64,000 nt of DNA from Lentzea tibetensis (lineage in GTDB: Bacteria; Actinomycetota; Actinomycetes; Mycobacteriales; Pseudonocardiaceae), in assembly GCF_007845675.1 (NCBI RefSeq), contig NZ_VOBR01000004.1:199719-263718 (forward strand). The letters are read 5' to 3'. This document shows positions 877 through 8,766 of the stretch, in pieces; position 1 is the first letter of the stretch; every line of letters begins with the position of its first letter. The notes below the pieces were generated by a model. That model was not told the DNA's origin. It ran no database searches and worked only from the letters and a program-made list of their open reading frames with translations. A program made the translations under genes and the position numbers.

Positions 877-1602
877 TTAGCCCACGAAACACGCACAGCA
901 GCTGTTCCAGTCGAAGGGGCGCGAGCGCACGAGGTCGAGGTACTGGGTCGTGTGCTCGTCGGTGGGATCCAAGTGGCGCCCGATGACCAGTCCGACAACT
1001 CGCTTAGCACCGGCACGCTTCAGAGCCACCGCGCAGGACTGGAGGCTTGCTCCGGACGTCCACGTGTCGTCGACCAGGAGAACGTTCTTGTCGGCCACGT
1101 CGCTGTGGACGGTGCAGGCATCCGGGCGGAGCTGCCGAGTGTTCTGCTCGGTCGTGCTCAGCACCTCGGCGAACCGACCTCGGGTGAATCCGAGTCGTCG
1201 CCCGAGCAGGTCGACCAGTGGGTGAGCATTGGTGCGCTCGCGCGTGCTCGGAACGACCGTGACCAGCTCGAACGGTCCGAGGCATTCGCCGTGGCGGCCG
1301 AGGAAGTTCGCGAGCACGGAGAGCAGCTCGTTGGTGAACCGAGTGCGCACAGCCTGAAAGCGGCTGTACTTGTACTTCGCCAGGACGTAGGCGAGCTGTT
1401 GATCCTTGACCGCGATGGAGATCGGCACGACGAGATCGGCCAGTTCGCTGTTGGCGGCCTCGTAGTGCTTGTTGCACTGCCAGCAGCGAGTCCACCCCTT
1501 CGAGTCACGGCGACAGACCTCGCACACCACGCCGGCGACAACGGGTGGCGGGGGCACGAGGATGTTGCTGTAGCGCTCGATGAGCTGGCTGAACGGGCTC
1601 AC
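877..1602 (-). CDS. ComF-like phosphoribosyltransferase (ShosT-like candidate)
   Basis: A 241-residue type I phosphoribosyltransferase of ComF type. Residues 27-43 hold two CxxC pairs (CEVC and CWQC), a likely zinc ribbon; the PRPP-binding signature VLLVDDTWTSGAS is at 174-186 with the acidic pair D178/D179. It begins 1 nt after the stop of the dprA-like gene, so the two are certainly co-transcribed. In ShosTA defence systems a PRTase-domain toxin (ShosT) is paired with a DprA-like antitoxin (ShosA); this pair has the same composition. The alternative is a ComF homologue in DNA uptake, but no other competence gene is nearby. Domain assignment is firm; the toxin role is inferred. Confidence 0.85.
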   Translation of the reverse strand: MSPFSQLIERYSNILVPPPPVVAGVVCEVCRRDSKGWTRCWQCNKHYEAANSELADLVVPISIAVKDQQLAYVLAKYKYSRFQAVRTRFTNELLSVLANFLGRHGECLGPFELVTVVPSTRERTNAHPLVDLLGRRLGFTRGRFAEVLSTTEQNTRQLRPDACTVHSDVADKNVLLVDDTWTSGASLQSCAVALKRAGAKRVVGLVIGRHLDPTDEHTTQYLDLVRSRPFDWNSCCACFVG

Positions 1603-1603
1603 G

Positions 1604-2497
1604 TCAGAAGTTGATCAAATCCGGAACGTCGGTGCCGAGATCGTCCAGTACCCGGAGCAGTTGGTCCGGGCTCTCCAGCACGGTTGTGTTCGGCCTCGCC
1701 GCCATGTCCTGTCCCCAGGTCGTGCCGGTGACGACTTCAGGCAGGAGGAAGACGTGGCGCCCGTGCTCCAGTGCCAGCCGGGCCTGGATGCGAGTGCCGC
1801 TGTGCTCGCCTGCCTCGACGACGACGGTCGCGACACTGCACCCGCTCATCACCGCATTGCGCATCGGGAAGTGATGCTTGGCCGGTCCGGCGTCCGGCCA
1901 GAACTGCGACAGCACAGCGCCCGTTCGCTGAATCTCCTCGTGCAGTTCGGCGTTGGCGCTCGGGTAGCAGGTGCGCAGGCCGGTGCCGACCACGGCGACG
2001 GTGCGGCCCCCTGCGTCCAGCACGGCTCGGTGCGCCGCACTGTCGACTCCCGCCGCGAGTCCGCTGAGGACAGTGATCCCGTTCTGGGTCAGCATCGTCG
2101 CGATCTCGCGGGTGATGTGCAGTCCGCGGCTGGACGCGTTCCTGCTGCCGACTACGGCAACGCCGTTCTGGTCGGCGGGATCGAGGAAGCCGCGGTAGGT
2201 CAGGAAGGGGGGCCGCTGGTGCACCATCATCAGCTGCACCGGGTAGTCCTCGTCCAACACGGTGACGAGCCGGATGCCTTCTTCCGCCCACGCCTTGATC
2301 TCGTGCACCACCGCGTCGAGCTGATCGGCGGGGTCGACGGTGACGTGGTCGAGCGTCGGCTGCTCCGGCGTCAGCAACGTGTCCAGAGAGGTCAACGCAG
2401 AGCCGGACTCCTCCACGACCCTGGTGACGTCGGCCCAACCGAGCTCGCTCTCCCGCAGAGCGAGCAGCAGCGCGGCCTGTTCGACCTGGTTCGTCAC
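1604..2497 (-). CDS. dprA: DprA/Smf-family DNA-processing protein (ShosA-like candidate)
   Basis: A 297-residue DprA-family protein. After about 110 N-terminal residues comes the SLOG-type Rossmann domain with VVGSRNASSRG, SGLAAGVDSAAHRA, VVGTGL, FPMRNAVMSG and VVEAGEHSGT, all hallmarks of DprA. It ends soon after this domain, without the C-terminal winged-helix domain of many full-length DprA proteins. The start is a GTG; an ATG 8 bases upstream is out of frame. Canonical actinobacterial dprA lies beside comM/yifB-like genes, which are absent here, so this looks like an accessory copy. With the PRTase gene 1 nt downstream it could be the antitoxin of a ShosTA-like system. Confidence 0.88.
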   Translation of the reverse strand: MTNQVEQAALLLALRESELGWADVTRVVEESGSALTSLDTLLTPEQPTLDHVTVDPADQLDAVVHEIKAWAEEGIRLVTVLDEDYPVQLMMVHQRPPFLTYRGFLDPADQNGVAVVGSRNASSRGLHITREIATMLTQNGITVLSGLAAGVDSAAHRAVLDAGGRTVAVVGTGLRTCYPSANAELHEEIQRTGAVLSQFWPDAGPAKHHFPMRNAVMSGCSVATVVVEAGEHSGTRIQARLALEHGRHVFLLPEVVTGTTWGQDMAARPNTTVLESPDQLLRVLDDLGTDVPDLINF

Positions 2498-2600
2498 GAC
2501 CTCATCCTATCGAACAGAGGTTCGACCTGCGAGTTCACTCGCGGGAAAGTGGGCGAGTCTACTCAGCTCAAGTGCGGACCGATGGCCGTGCAGCCGACGG

Positions 2601-4529: not shown

Positions 4530-6545
4530 ATGATCCCCCTGCCACTGCTCGCCAACCACCGCCCTGGTAGAGCAGCGGTGACCTGCGAGTACCGCTGTGG
4601 CGACGCTTGCTTCCACGAAGTTCCGAACACGTCCGGCAACCCCTACTTCGGTGACCTGTTCACCCGCCGCGCCGCGCTGAAGGCGGGTGCGGTCGTCGCG
4701 GCCGCCGCGACCGTCGGACTCCCGGCCACCGCCGCGGCCCAGGAGGCGAGCGGGCACCGTCCGCCCAAGGGGCTGAACTTCAAGCCCGTGCAACCGAACA
4801 CCCAGGACGCGGTCGTGGTCCCCGAGGGCTACGAGCAGGGGATCGTCATCCGCTGGGGCGACCCGCTGTTCCCCGGCGTGCCGCAGTTCGACTTCGACAA
4901 CCAGACCGCCGCCAAGCAAGCCGAGCAGTTCGGCTTCAACTGCGACTTCGCCGCGATGCTGCCGTTGGACCACCTGGGCCTCACCAACCTCATGGTGACC
5001 AACCACGAGTACACGTCCGAGCCGTTCATGTTCAAGGGCTACAGCTCGGCCAACCCCACCAGGGAGCAGGTCGAGATCGCCTGGGCCGCGCACGGCCTGT
5101 CGGTGTTCATGGTCAAGCGCACGCCCCACTCCGGCCAGCTCAAGCCGGCCTTCAGCAAGTACAACCGCCGCATCACGTTGCACACCGAGTTCGAGGTGCG
5201 CGGCCCGGCCGCGGGCAGCGCACTGCTGAAGACGTCGGTCGACCCGACCGGCACGAAGGTCTTCGGCACCATGAACAACTGCTCGGGCGGTGTCACACCG
5301 TGGGGCACGATCCTGTCCGGCGAGGAGAACTTCAACCAGTACTTCGCCAACGCGGGGCCGTTGAACGACCCGCGCCTCGCCCGGTACGGCATCACGGGCA
5401 CCGCGACCGGCCGCAAGTGGGAGCGGTTCGACAAGCGGTTCGACCTCGCCCAGGAACCCAACGAGGCCAACAGGTTCGGCTGGGTCATCGAGCTCGACCC
5501 CAACGACCCCGACTCGACGCCGGTGAAGCACACGCACCTCGGCCGGTTCAAGCACGAGACCGCGAACGTGCGGATCGCTCGCGATGGCCGCGTCGTGGCG
5601 TACTCCGGTGACGACGAGCGGTTCGAGTACATCTACAAGTTCATCTCGAACGGCAAAGTGCGCAAGGGCGACAGCAGGTCAGCGCGCAGGCACAACATGA
5701 CCTTGCTCGACGACGGCACGCTCTACGTCGCGAAGTTCACCGGCGACAGCCCGCCCGCTGAGATCGACGGCACCGGCAAGCTGCCGTCCGACGGCCAGTT
5801 CGACGGTTCCGGCGAGTGGATCCCGCTGGCCAGCGGCAAGAAGTCCTTCGTGCCCGGTATGACCGCCGAGGAGGTCTACGTCTTCACGCGCATCGCCGCG
5901 GACAAGGTCGGCGCGACGAAGATGGACCGCCCGGAGGACATCGAGTGCCACCCGCACACCGGCCGGGTGTACTGCGCGCTCAGCAACAACGTCGAACGCG
6001 GGAACGCGGGCAAGGAAGGCGCGACCGAGCCGAACCCGCGCCTGCAGAACCGCCACGGTCAGGTGCTCGAGCTGGCCGAACGCCGCGACGACGCGCTCTC
6101 CCTGACGTTCCGCTGGGACCTGTTCCTGGTCTGCGGTGACCCGAAGTCGCCGGACACCTACTTCGGCGGCTACGACAAGTCGCAGGTCAGCCCGATTTCC
6201 AGCCCGGACAACGTGGCGTTCGACCCGCACGGCAACCTGTGGATCTCGACCGACTCGGCGGGCGCGCTGAACGGGCTGAACGACGGCCTCTACGGGGTGC
6301 CGCTGGAAGGACGCGAACGCGGACACCTGAAGCTGTTCCTCACCGTGCCGAAGGGGGCCGAGACGTGCGGCCCGATCATCGGCGAACGCGTCATCACGGT
6401 GTGCGTGCAGCACCCTGGAGAGGTGGACGGCGCCTCCGCCGACAACCCGGCGTCGCACTGGCCTGACGGAGGCAGCAGCCAGCCGCGTCCGTCGGTCGTC
6501 GCGGTCTGGAAGCGCGGGCATCGGCAGCTGGACGAAATCGGCTGA
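4530..6545 (+). CDS. phoX: PhoX family alkaline phosphatase (DUF839), first copy
   Basis: A 671-residue Tat-exported phosphatase. PhoX hydrolyses phosphomonoesters outside the cell using an Fe/Ca cofactor. The N-terminus has a CxxxCxxxC motif (Cys 19, 23, 27) ahead of the Tat twin-arginine motif TRRAALK (Arg 46-47) and a hydrophobic Ala-rich stretch ending near AAAQ. The hallmark NNCSGGVTPWGTILSGEEN holds Cys251, expected to bind iron, and the following glutamates; other conserved segments are KMDRPEDIE and GDPKSPDTYFGGY. The ATG at 4530 follows GGAGG at 8 nt. A paralogue follows 127 bp downstream. PHO-box-like repeats upstream suggest phosphate-starvation control. Confidence 0.92.
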   Translation: MIPLPLLANHRPGRAAVTCEYRCGDACFHEVPNTSGNPYFGDLFTRRAALKAGAVVAAAATVGLPATAAAQEASGHRPPKGLNFKPVQPNTQDAVVVPEGYEQGIVIRWGDPLFPGVPQFDFDNQTAAKQAEQFGFNCDFAAMLPLDHLGLTNLMVTNHEYTSEPFMFKGYSSANPTREQVEIAWAAHGLSVFMVKRTPHSGQLKPAFSKYNRRITLHTEFEVRGPAAGSALLKTSVDPTGTKVFGTMNNCSGGVTPWGTILSGEENFNQYFANAGPLNDPRLARYGITGTATGRKWERFDKRFDLAQEPNEANRFGWVIELDPNDPDSTPVKHTHLGRFKHETANVRIARDGRVVAYSGDDERFEYIYKFISNGKVRKGDSRSARRHNMTLLDDGTLYVAKFTGDSPPAEIDGTGKLPSDGQFDGSGEWIPLASGKKSFVPGMTAEEVYVFTRIAADKVGATKMDRPEDIECHPHTGRVYCALSNNVERGNAGKEGATEPNPRLQNRHGQVLELAERRDDALSLTFRWDLFLVCGDPKSPDTYFGGYDKSQVSPISSPDNVAFDPHGNLWISTDSAGALNGLNDGLYGVPLEGRERGHLKLFLTVPKGAETCGPIIGERVITVCVQHPGEVDGASADNPASHWPDGGSSQPRPSVVAVWKRGHRQLDEIG

Positions 6546-6672: not shown

Positions 6673-8766
6673 GTGTCTTCCCCCACCGATCGGGGCCGCC
6701 GCCTGCTGCCCCTGCTCCCGACGCACCCGCTCGGGCGCGCGGCGGTCACCTGCGAGTTCCGCTGCGGCAACGCGTGCTCGCACGAAGCCCCCAACTCCTC
6801 GGAAAACCAGTACTTCGGCGACGTCGTCCGCGAGGTCGTGAGCCGCCGCGGCATGCTCAAGGCGGGCGCGGTGATCGCCGCGGCCGGCGTCGGCGCGGTG
6901 TCGATGAGCGGCACGGCCCTCGCCGCGCCCGTCGAGGTCGACCTGGACGTCGACCTGGACCTCAAGTTCGGTCGCGACCGCGACGGCCTCAACTTCGAAC
7001 CGGTCGCGCCCAACACGCTCGACCAGATCGTCGTGCCGAAGGGCTACCAGCAGGACGTCGTGATCCGCTGGGGCGACGCCGTGCTGCCTGATGCGCCCAA
7101 GTTCGACTTCGACAACCAGACGCCCGAGGCGCAGGCGAAGCAGTTCGGCTTCAACAACGACTTCTGCGGCCTGGTCCCGCTGCCCGGCTGGGACCGCTGG
7201 CTCATGGTGAGCAACCACGAGTACACGACCGAGTCGTTCATGTTCAAGGACTGGGCGCCGGACAAGATCACCGAACGGCACGCCAAGATCGCGTGGGCCG
7301 CGCACGGCCTGTCGGTCGTCCAGGTCGAGCGCGACCACCGCACCGGCAAGCTGGTGCCGTCCAAGGACAAGCGCCGGTACAACCGCCGCATCACGCTCAC
7401 CACGCCGTTCGAGGTGCGCGGCCCGGCCGCCGGTTCGCAGTACCTCAAGACGTCGGCCGACCCGACCGGCAAGAAGGTGCTCGGCACGCAGAACAACTGC
7501 TCGGGCGGTGTCACGCCGTGGGGCACGATCCTGTCCGGCGAGGAGAACTTCAACCAGTACTTCGCCAACGCCGACCTGGTCACGGACCCGGACACCAAGG
7601 CGAAGCTGGGCCGCTACGGCTTCAGCGGCAAGGGCTCCCTGCGCAAGTGGGAGAACTACGACAAGCGCTTCGACCTGGCGCAGGAACCCAACGAGGCCAA
7701 CCGCTTCGGCTACATCGTGGAGATCGACCCGCTCGACCCGACCTCCACGCCGGTCAAGCACACGGCGCTCGGCCGGTTCAAGCACGAGGGCGCGAACGTG
7801 ATCATCGCCCGCGACGGCCGCGTCGTCGCGTACATGGGTGACGACGAGCGCTTCGACTACATGTACAAGTTCGTCTCCGACGACTGCTACCTCCCCGGTG
7901 ACAGCAAGCGCGCGCGTGAGCACAACAAACGCCTGCTCGACTCCGGCACGCTGTACGTCGCACGCTTCAAGGGCGACAGCCCGGTGGCCGAGATCGACGG
8001 CACCGGCAAGCTCCCGTCCGACGGCGAGTTCGACGGCACCGGCGAGTGGATTCCGCTGGCGCGCAACGACAAGTCGTTCGTGGACGGCTTCACGGCCGAG
8101 CAGGTCTACGTCTTCACCCGGCTCGCGGCGGACAAGGTCGGCGCCACCAAGATGGACCGTCCCGAGGACGTCGAGCCGTCCAAGAAGAACCGCCGCATCT
8201 ACGCCGCGCTGACCAACAACACCGACCGCGGTGTGAAGCCCGGCAAGGAAGGCGCGACCGAGATCGCGCCGCGGGTCAACAACAAGCACGGCCACGTGCT
8301 GGAGGTCGAGGAGCGCCGCAGCGACAACACCGCGCTGACGTTCTCCTGGAAGCTCCTGCTGGTGTGCGGTGACCCGAAGTCGCCGGACACGTACTTCGGC
8401 GGCTACGACAAGTCGCAGGTGAGCGCGATCTCCTGCCCGGACAACGTCGCGTTCGACTCGCGCGGCAACCTGTGGATCTCCACGGACGGCAACGCGCTCA
8501 AGTCCAACGACGGCCTGTTCGCGCTGCCGGTCGAGGGCAAGCGCCGCGGGTTCGTGAAGCAGTTCCTCACGGTGCCCAACGGAGCCGAGACGTGCGGCCC
8601 GGTCATCACCGACGACTTCGTGCTGGTGTCCGTGCAGCACCCCGGCGAGCTCGACGGCGCGAGCGCCAACAACCCGTTGTCGCACTGGCCGGACGGTGGC
8701 ACCAGCCAGCCGCGGCCCGCCGTCGCGGTGATCTGGCGCAAGGACCGCGGGCACGTCTGCGACTGA
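6673..8766 (+). CDS. phoX: PhoX family alkaline phosphatase (DUF839), second copy
   Basis: A 697-residue paralogue of the preceding gene, alike over the full length. It has the same N-terminal CxxxCxxxC motif, a Tat motif SRRGMLKAG, and the metal-binding NNCSGGVTPWGTILSGEEN with Cys276. It differs by an insert of alternating Val/Asp residues after the signal peptide. The GTG start at 6673 has GGAGG 5 nt upstream. An extracellular phosphomonoesterase role is inferred from the family. A separate PHO-box-like repeat and a downstream hairpin make it an independent transcription unit. Confidence 0.92.
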   Translation: MSSPTDRGRRLLPLLPTHPLGRAAVTCEFRCGNACSHEAPNSSENQYFGDVVREVVSRRGMLKAGAVIAAAGVGAVSMSGTALAAPVEVDLDVDLDLKFGRDRDGLNFEPVAPNTLDQIVVPKGYQQDVVIRWGDAVLPDAPKFDFDNQTPEAQAKQFGFNNDFCGLVPLPGWDRWLMVSNHEYTTESFMFKDWAPDKITERHAKIAWAAHGLSVVQVERDHRTGKLVPSKDKRRYNRRITLTTPFEVRGPAAGSQYLKTSADPTGKKVLGTQNNCSGGVTPWGTILSGEENFNQYFANADLVTDPDTKAKLGRYGFSGKGSLRKWENYDKRFDLAQEPNEANRFGYIVEIDPLDPTSTPVKHTALGRFKHEGANVIIARDGRVVAYMGDDERFDYMYKFVSDDCYLPGDSKRAREHNKRLLDSGTLYVARFKGDSPVAEIDGTGKLPSDGEFDGTGEWIPLARNDKSFVDGFTAEQVYVFTRLAADKVGATKMDRPEDVEPSKKNRRIYAALTNNTDRGVKPGKEGATEIAPRVNNKHGHVLEVEERRSDNTALTFSWKLLLVCGDPKSPDTYFGGYDKSQVSAISCPDNVAFDSRGNLWISTDGNALKSNDGLFALPVEGKRRGFVKQFLTVPNGAETCGPVITDDFVLVSVQHPGELDGASANNPLSHWPDGGTSQPRPAVAVIWRKDRGHVCD

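Follow-up and report, generated by a model that had tools for sequence, protein, structure and literature searches.

A LexA-box-preceded gene pair for a DprA-like protein and a ComF-type phosphoribosyltransferase in Lentzea tibetensis: a candidate ShosTA-like module

The gene pair and its locus

Two adjoining genes of the soil actinobacterium Lentzea tibetensis, one for a DprA-like protein and one for a phosphoribosyltransferase (PRTase), are the subject of this analysis. They lie in a stretch of 64,000 nucleotides (nt) of contig NZ_VOBR01000004.1 (C44:199719-263718), called the window below, in a draft assembly (GCF_007845675.1) of 9.36 Mb in 105 contigs. Genomes, contigs and loci are given by our own G, C and L numbers where they need to be told apart. 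A first-pass annotation, made from the window sequence alone, had compared the pair with ShosTA, a reported toxin-antitoxin system directed against phages.

Both genes are on the minus strand (Table 1). The dprA-like gene comes first, and a single nucleotide separates its stop codon from the start of the PRTase gene (TGA-C-GTG). This arrangement, and the reading of the second gene as a ComF-like PRTase with a zinc ribbon and an intact phosphoribosyl pyrophosphate (PRPP) loop, had been proposed in the first-pass annotation, and both open reading frames (ORFs) and their domains were verified: the DprA-like protein matches PF02481 (DNA_processg_A) with 205 bits against a cut-off of 29.6, and the PRTase matches PF00156 (Pribosyltran) with 27.6 bits against a cut-off of 26.3. 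The loop is intact as claimed, with three of its residues invariant among aligned family members. The annotation overlooked the LexA box that precedes the pair.

Table 1. Features of the gene pair, with positions in the window
Feature	Position	Strand	Remarks
dprA-like gene, putative antitoxin/sensor	1604..2497	-	297 aa, GTG start; Pfam DNA_processg_A, 205 bits
Zinc-ribbon ComF-type PRTase gene, putative toxin/effector	877..1602	-	241 aa, GTG start; Pfam Pribosyltran
PRTase zinc ribbon, C27-x2-C30 ... C40-x2-C43	1474..1524	-	Four cysteines invariant, 23/23 and 26/26 rows (overlapping sets)
PRTase PRPP loop VLLVDDTWTSGA, with family-specific W181	1048..1083	-	D179, W181 and G184 invariant
LexA/SOS box TCGAACCTCTGTTCGA (minus-strand reading), with perfectly palindromic arms	2510..2525	.	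Without mismatches; no other match in the window
-10-like TAGGAT, immediately downstream of the LexA box	2504..2509	-	-12 to -7 of the GTG start; from sequence and alignment

Separation from the housekeeping genes

Two genes in the draft genome match PF02481, the window copy and a second one (L001) that codes for a protein of 408 amino acids. The L001 protein has a DprA winged-helix match and its gene has a ComM-type Mg-chelatase gene just upstream, whereas the window protein has no match to the winged-helix model (DprA_WH) and no ComM-type gene adjoins it. The missing comM-like neighbour had been pointed out in the first-pass annotation, which also made its reading depend on a second dprA elsewhere in the genome; L001 is that gene, and the neighbour is found there instead. 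Similarly, a second ComF gene is located on contig C65, between ORFs that we take to be lpqB-like and hpf-like. Housekeeping ComF is present in 97 of 100 genomes searched, as against 25 of 120 for the window PRTase (the genome of L. tibetensis is in both counts), and all 25 genomes of the genus carry another DprA match and a ComF match. Neither window gene is a housekeeping copy; those copies lie elsewhere in the genome.

The DprA-like protein also stands apart from housekeeping DprA in phylogeny. Our second tree has 65 rows, trimmed to the envelope of the hidden Markov model (HMM), and uses 15 of the 30 housekeeping rows of the class; a Mycolicibacterium plasmid pair (L053) and SopEPhi (L172) were left out. 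In this tree, a branch with support of 100/99 divides 40 rows (31 actinobacterial accessory proteins, including an orphan from G014 described below, and nine of ShosA type) from 25 (22 housekeeping proteins and three ShosA of P2 type). Placing the window protein with housekeeping DprA is rejected in a topology test (p-AU 0.003), so that the grouping under which the first-pass reading was to be given up does not hold. A topology with accessory and housekeeping DprA together and all 12 ShosA rows apart is rejected at the borderline only (p-AU 0.049). The nine ShosA-type rows score 237-343 bits with the PADLOC ShosA model, and for eight of them the partner PRTase scores 141-170 bits as ShosT; the PRTase of phiOH2 reaches only 29. 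In our first tree (52 rows), which has long branches, L053 is basal to the accessory and ShosA rows taken together, and L172 groups neither with these nor with the housekeeping rows. Four residues follow the same division: Q198, M217, Q238 and W261 are each found in 29-30 of 30 accessory and 8-9 of nine ShosA-type rows, and in none of the 22 housekeeping rows. Fast evolution of the accessory DprA was considered as an argument and rejected, the BLAST identity of proteins from the genus to the copy of the window genome being 72-77% for housekeeping and 76-83% for accessory DprA.

Profile scores are less informative here. With the PADLOC ShosA model, the window protein scores 199 bits, its counterparts in phage Vasanti and plasmid pNSL1 score 213 and 191, and housekeeping DprA scores 174; the model separates poorly between window-type and housekeeping DprA. 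We had taken PADLOC scores as possible proof of ShosTA, and dropped them as such after these controls and the corresponding one for ShosT (28 bits for the genome's ComF). Caution is advisable wherever such pairs are classified by ShosA and ShosT scores, which differ little from the scores that housekeeping DprA and ComF obtain. A search of solved structures with the DprA-like protein returns 3uqz first and 3maj second, followed by 8zva and the ShosA structure 9vzo.

The PRTase and its relation to ComF and ShosT

In an alignment of 23 PRTases (that of the window included), C27, C30, C40, C43, Y77, K78, H104, C107, D179, W181, G184, Q188 and R209 are invariant and C235 is nearly so; the ribbon cysteines and D179, W181 and G184 are invariant again in an overlapping set of 26 rows. 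As a guess, H104, C107 and C235 might make a second metal site. The loop motif of the family is DDxWTxG plus a downstream Q. The corresponding loop is mostly DDVVTTG or DDVITTG in ComF rows, and mostly DDVLTTG or DDVLTAG in short ShosT rows. The zinc ribbon is found in every aligned row of the window family and in none of eight short ShosT rows.

Profile comparison with hhalign matches the window family to ComF with 95.9% over 171 columns, the ribbon included, to the PRTase domain of RqlH with 85.6% over 47 columns, and to short ShosT with 68.5% over 47 columns. With a slightly altered set of rows, the values are 95.6% over 172 columns for ComF and 72.3% over 46 for ShosT. The window PRTase has the N-terminal zinc ribbon, the PRTase domain and the full-length profile match of the ComF fold family, whereas its similarity to ShosT does not run along its length (68%, 47 columns). 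Judged by these profiles it is, of the three compared, nearest to ComF, by which we mean nearer to ComF than to ShosT and no more: ShosT is itself a relative of ComF and the border is not sharp, because the ComF and ShosT profiles match each other with 96.2% over 111 columns. With TIGR00201, the window PRTase scores 39.5 bits and the genome's own ComF 47.2, both far below the cut-off of 233.55. With the PADLOC ShosT model, the PRTases of the window, G015, Vasanti and pNSL1 score 36, 31, 23 and 15 bits, and the controls 28 bits (the genome's ComF) and 141-180 bits (ten ShosT). Among solved structures, the window PRTase alone finds no close relative (best E 0.021), and the profile of its family gives weak matches at the loop only, of which the best is to a phosphoribosyltransferase (2p1z, E 0.0003), with ShosT appearing at E 0.004; a short ShosT (Mana) used as query finds nothing up to E 1.

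These comparisons bear on the possibility that the pair is a true ShosTA whose diverged actinobacterial ShosT is scored poorly by the PADLOC model. Its gene order and DprA group are those of pairs that score as both ShosA and ShosT, the ComF and ShosT profiles match each other as described, and passages of the DefenseFinder study (PMC10482375) record ShosTA in Actinobacteria and note its tendency to be encoded on plasmids. However, the PRTase family aligns with ShosT over far fewer columns than with ComF, all its aligned rows have a zinc ribbon, which is missing from the short ShosT rows, and the perfect core of the LexA box occurs in none of ten ShosTA-type references (see below). We regard a diverged ShosTA as decidedly unlikely.

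Coupling of the two genes and mobile carriers

The two genes are found together well beyond Lentzea. Of 25 loci in relatives, a set that includes the window genome, 23 have DprA adjoining the PRTase; of the two exceptions, L039 is at a contig edge and L043 is broken. In a survey of 394 genomes of the class, 58 have some PRTase match at E 1e-6; the best match reaches at least 100 bits in 19, and all 19 of these have an adjoining DprA gene, which is upstream of the match in 18 loci and downstream in the remaining one. In this last locus (L252, genome G134) the order is reversed, with the PRTase ahead of DprA. Second matches of >100 bits in G458 and G129 are outside the count of 19 loci. The weaker matches in the class include other pairs of DprA and PRTase as well as matches with no DprA alongside. 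The pairing of DprA and PRTase genes is not due to chance. A scan of named genomes gave 33 loci, eight in Lentzea and 25 in others. Two arrangements have two family PRTases close together on opposite strands: L245 (G289), where they occupy 618-1484 and 1504-2397 with one DprA in the stretch, and G458:C191:24062-28073.

Several carriers are mobile. The Gordonia phages Vasanti and Bosnia have the pair near their integrase and immunity genes, on the strand of the repressor. A plasmid search returned ten records, and in all seven examined (H4, H7 and H10 being outside this set) DprA is followed by the PRTase. The pair is also present on one viral contig of IMG/VR. On the Mycolicibacterium vanbaalenii plasmid of L053, a distant member of the family, a gene annotated as SIR2-family is directly upstream of the pair and is possibly a neighbouring defence gene. 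On three rhizobial plasmids (L166, L167 and L169), two different DprA/PRTase modules adjoin and converge, one a pair of the short ShosT type and the other a pair with a 414-residue PRTase that also scores as ShosT (L167); such adjoining modules may be co-inherited defence pairs.

A LexA box in the predicted promoter

Upstream of dprA, the LexA box is followed by TAGGAT, six further nucleotides and the GTG start codon, so that the box ends 12 nt before the start. It is the only LexA box in the window, where 0.24 would be expected at up to one mismatch. The whole genome contains 11 perfect sites, and none for a reversed control pattern. One of these sites precedes lexA (LexA_DNA_bind with 92.7 bits, and Peptidase_S24) and another a gene for a DinB-type polymerase (IMS, 158 bits); seven of the remainder were not linked to known SOS genes. 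A further perfect box (L293, G000:C66:163437) lies between a possible radical-SAM ORF and an ORF for a PnuC-type NMN transporter; the former scores 26.7 bits, below the cut-off of 29.5, and has intein/Hint matches too.

Of 13 aligned upstream regions of the clade, 12 have the full 16-mer without a mismatch and all 13 have a perfect core, while much of the surrounding sequence drifts; G050 is the exception, with two outer mismatches. TAGGAT or a close variant is present in these regions as well. We surveyed 220-nt stretches around dprA starts for a perfect core, GAAC-N4-GTTC. It was found at 25 of 48 actinobacterial pairs (all ten fixed-site Lentzea and 15 of 38 others, among them phage Vasanti), and at none of ten ShosTA-type references or seven housekeeping dprA genes.

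The actinobacterial LexA box is TCGAAC-N4-GTTCGA. The window box also fits the motif tCGAAC-N4-GNNCGa given for Streptomyces venezuelae in passages of PMC9380542; the terms 'dpra', 'phosphoribosyl' and 'toxin' are absent from the text of that LexA paper. The predicted promoter of the pair has the box of a LexA-regulon member, at which LexA may bind, and the position of TAGGAT directly after the box suggests LexA-repressed, possibly leaderless transcription. A perfect SOS box ahead of the pair suggests that DNA damage switches it on.

A fixed chromosomal site and one-sided decay

The site of the pair lies between genes for a HAD hydrolase and an SDR protein, both in Lentzea and in a genome of another genus, G045. 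Around the window pair, the neighbours scanned are SDR, HAD hydrolase, MFS and PhoX genes. A gene for a 193-residue protein with no Pfam match is often found between the HAD gene and dprA in Lentzea (L058, 7014-7592, minus strand); it was not found at the site in the window genome, G024, G005, G002, G014 or G003, and G011 has a short match only. The window also contains tandem PhoX-like genes, at 4530-6545 (confirmed with Pfam) and 6673-8766 (assigned by eye from similar sequence), and in several other Lentzea, genes of the first one's cluster stand in tandem at the corresponding position.

Presence at this site is patchy. Ten of the 25 genus genomes (own included) have an intact pair there and 15 do not: 11 have no trace at E 0.01, G014 has a lone DprA, G016 and G006 have scraps, and G004 is rearranged. 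One of the traceless genomes, G013, carries a different pair at another location. The remnants in G016 and G006 retain the LexA box; no match to its core is found in the stretches taken from G014 or from the empty sites. G014 has lost the PRTase together with the promoter region, and its DprA begins just behind the HAD gene; the branch of this DprA has a length of 0.41, compared with 0.02-0.13 for the other fixed-site Lentzea rows, as if constraint had been lost.

When pairs decay, the PRTase goes first. We counted 45 genomes, namely the 25 relatives, 16 further genomes of the class, G014, G016, G006 and G078. Both genes are intact in 34, and the PRTase is broken or lost beside an intact DprA in seven (G079, G085, G052, G296, G284, G078 and G014); both have decayed in three (G025, G016 and G006), one locus is at a contig edge, and none has an intact PRTase without an intact DprA. 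G078 (38 bits, the N-terminal part of the PRTase only, behind a DprA of 350 bits) was counted and G207 was not; with G207 the ratio becomes 7 to 1 of 46, and without both it is 6 to 0 of 44. Two loci in which the C-terminal end of the model is missing (L038 and L249) were taken as intact. Searches with the PRTase favour the finding of lone PRTases, and so their bias opposes this result.

The site and the decay are relevant to two other explanations. In the first, the pair is an SOS-induced auxiliary of DNA repair or recombination, in which a second DprA loads RecA on single-stranded DNA, the ComF-like partner handles single-stranded DNA, and there is no toxin. DprA and ComFC are described as handling single-stranded DNA in passages of PMC9005727 and PMC9122126, the LexA box is shared with lexA and the DinB-type polymerase gene, and the chromosomal site in Lentzea is stable. 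This explanation fits poorly with the 15 of 25 genus genomes whose site has no intact pair (other DprA and ComF matches are present in all 25), with carriage by temperate phages and plasmids, with the earlier loss of the PRTase, and with a DprA nearest to the ShosA type rather than the housekeeping one; on balance we consider it unlikely. In the second, the pair is a selfish addiction module for plasmid or phage maintenance that has been domesticated on the chromosome, with any defence incidental. Plasmid and phage carriage and one-sided decay would be expected of such a module, but a single chromosomal site is kept across Lentzea and in G045, and the active-site residues and the LexA box are conserved. 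We find this very improbable.

Proposed function

Our favoured reading, which we think probable, is that the pair is an SOS-controlled, two-gene ShosTA-like module of toxin-antitoxin type that acts by abortive defence and has a ComF-type toxin. The PRTase, built on the ComF plan of a zinc ribbon and a PRPP-binding domain, would be the toxin; when free, it would use PRPP and probably disturb DNA integrity or the nucleotide pools, an effect reported for ShosT. The DprA-like protein would be both antitoxin and sensor, binding single-stranded DNA or its complexes and restraining the PRTase until infection or replication trouble alters its DNA-bound state. LexA would sit over the promoter, and the operon would be derepressed when DNA is damaged, whether by phage replication or by the toxin. 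The SOS response would then raise both proteins, which might arm the cell against a replicating phage or restock an antitoxin that protects DNA.

A more specific version of this reading is tentative, though we hold it quite possible: the pairs may form a distinct, LexA-gated actinobacterial class of toxin-antitoxin defence. Its toxin would have arisen from a duplicated zinc-ribbon PRTase of ComF type and would be leashed by a short DprA, SOS induction would arm abortive infection, and temperate phages would use the module for superinfection immunity.

Several points weigh against the favoured reading. The chemistry of ShosT is not transferable because the window PRTase is not a typical ShosT, and SOS control would suit a role in DNA repair too. 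The three P2-type ShosA fall on the housekeeping side of the DprA tree, and it is a P2-type protein that the solved ShosA 9vzo (and likewise 8zva) matches. No defence island is seen around the window pair, among the neighbours scanned and in a left-hand list of ORFs viewed by eye only, and the fixed site in Lentzea does not support recent mobility there. In G207 (L255), a PRTase of 87 bits has a loop without the tryptophan and no DprA in its stretch. A perfect LexA core is lacking in 23 of the 48 actinobacterial members, including phage Bosnia and six of seven plasmid copies; four of the 23 (G064, G079, G031 and G394) have a core with one mismatch. Finally, some broken PRTases are in draft genomes, where a frameshift may be a sequencing error; G085 and G284, which also have broken PRTases, are single-contig genomes.

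The proposal of the first-pass annotation can be kept in part. Its module is distinct from the housekeeping genes, its DprA groups with ShosA-scoring proteins, and pairs of the same kind are carried by phages and plasmids; its PRTase is not a typical ShosT, scoring little above the genome's ComF and far below the ShosT controls in the HMM comparison that the annotation had proposed. 'ShosTA-like' is a fair label, while full identity with ShosTA is not established.

To our knowledge, the chemistry of ComF proteins is poorly understood. A relative of ComF that is toxic and leashed by DprA would, if the reading is true, make the PRPP-dependent reaction of ComF assayable. A LexA box over an operon of phage-defence type would also link the SOS response with abortive infection in actinobacteria.

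Comparison with known systems

Pairs of DprA and PRTase genes are a known kind of system, and ShosTA is the analogue of the window pair about which most is understood. Passages of PMC9122126 describe a DprA and PRTase pair of a P2-like phage that protects Escherichia coli against T7 and lambda, and name DprA homologues as the antitoxins of shosTA, syrTA and rqlHI. According to a review (PMC12593503), ShosT is both a PRTase and a pyrophosphatase and upsets purine pools, with DNA duplications and cell death as the outcome; ShosA is described there as a DNA-binding protein with a likely role in promoting recombination. Since ShosTA has already been reported in Actinobacteria, the DprA/PRTase pairs of the phylum are probably included in the DefenseFinder counts. 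The apparent novelty, relative to the open-access literature searched, is the ComF-type toxin candidate and the LexA box; we found neither the ComF-type identity nor LexA control in that literature, although both may still have been published.

Like the window pair, ShosTA is a two-gene operon of a DprA-like protein and a PRTase with DprA first, it is carried by temperate phages and plasmids, and nine proteins scoring as ShosA share a tree group with the window DprA. It differs in its PRTase, that of the window being of the zinc-ribbon ComF type, in the LexA box upstream of the window pair, and in the position of P2-type ShosA (PDB 9vzo and 8zva) elsewhere in the DprA tree.

In PsyrTA and RqlHI, too, the antitoxin is DprA-like and the toxic domain is a PRTase; mutants of the putative PRPP pocket of RqlHI lost most toxicity, as described in passages of PMC4670107. 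However, the 241-residue window PRTase has no RecQ-like helicase, its match to the RqlH PRTase profile covers 47 columns, and it matches only the PRTase-end stretch of PsyrT (551-683). PsyrT was rejected as the closest relative on account of the missing helicase and the 47 columns. A separate, full-length RqlH-like helicase-PRTase is encoded elsewhere in the genome (L277, G000:C29:16730-18790), and a PsyrT-model match of nearly full span is present in 53 of 61 genomes. This count fits the reportedly frequent occurrence of rqlH without rqlI in Gram-positives.

Housekeeping DprA and ComF share the PF02481 domain and the ComF-type zinc ribbon with the window proteins, but the genome has them elsewhere, and the window DprA has no winged-helix match and clusters apart. 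The likeness to the actinobacterial LexA regulon is in the box, which matches the motif of that regulon perfectly.

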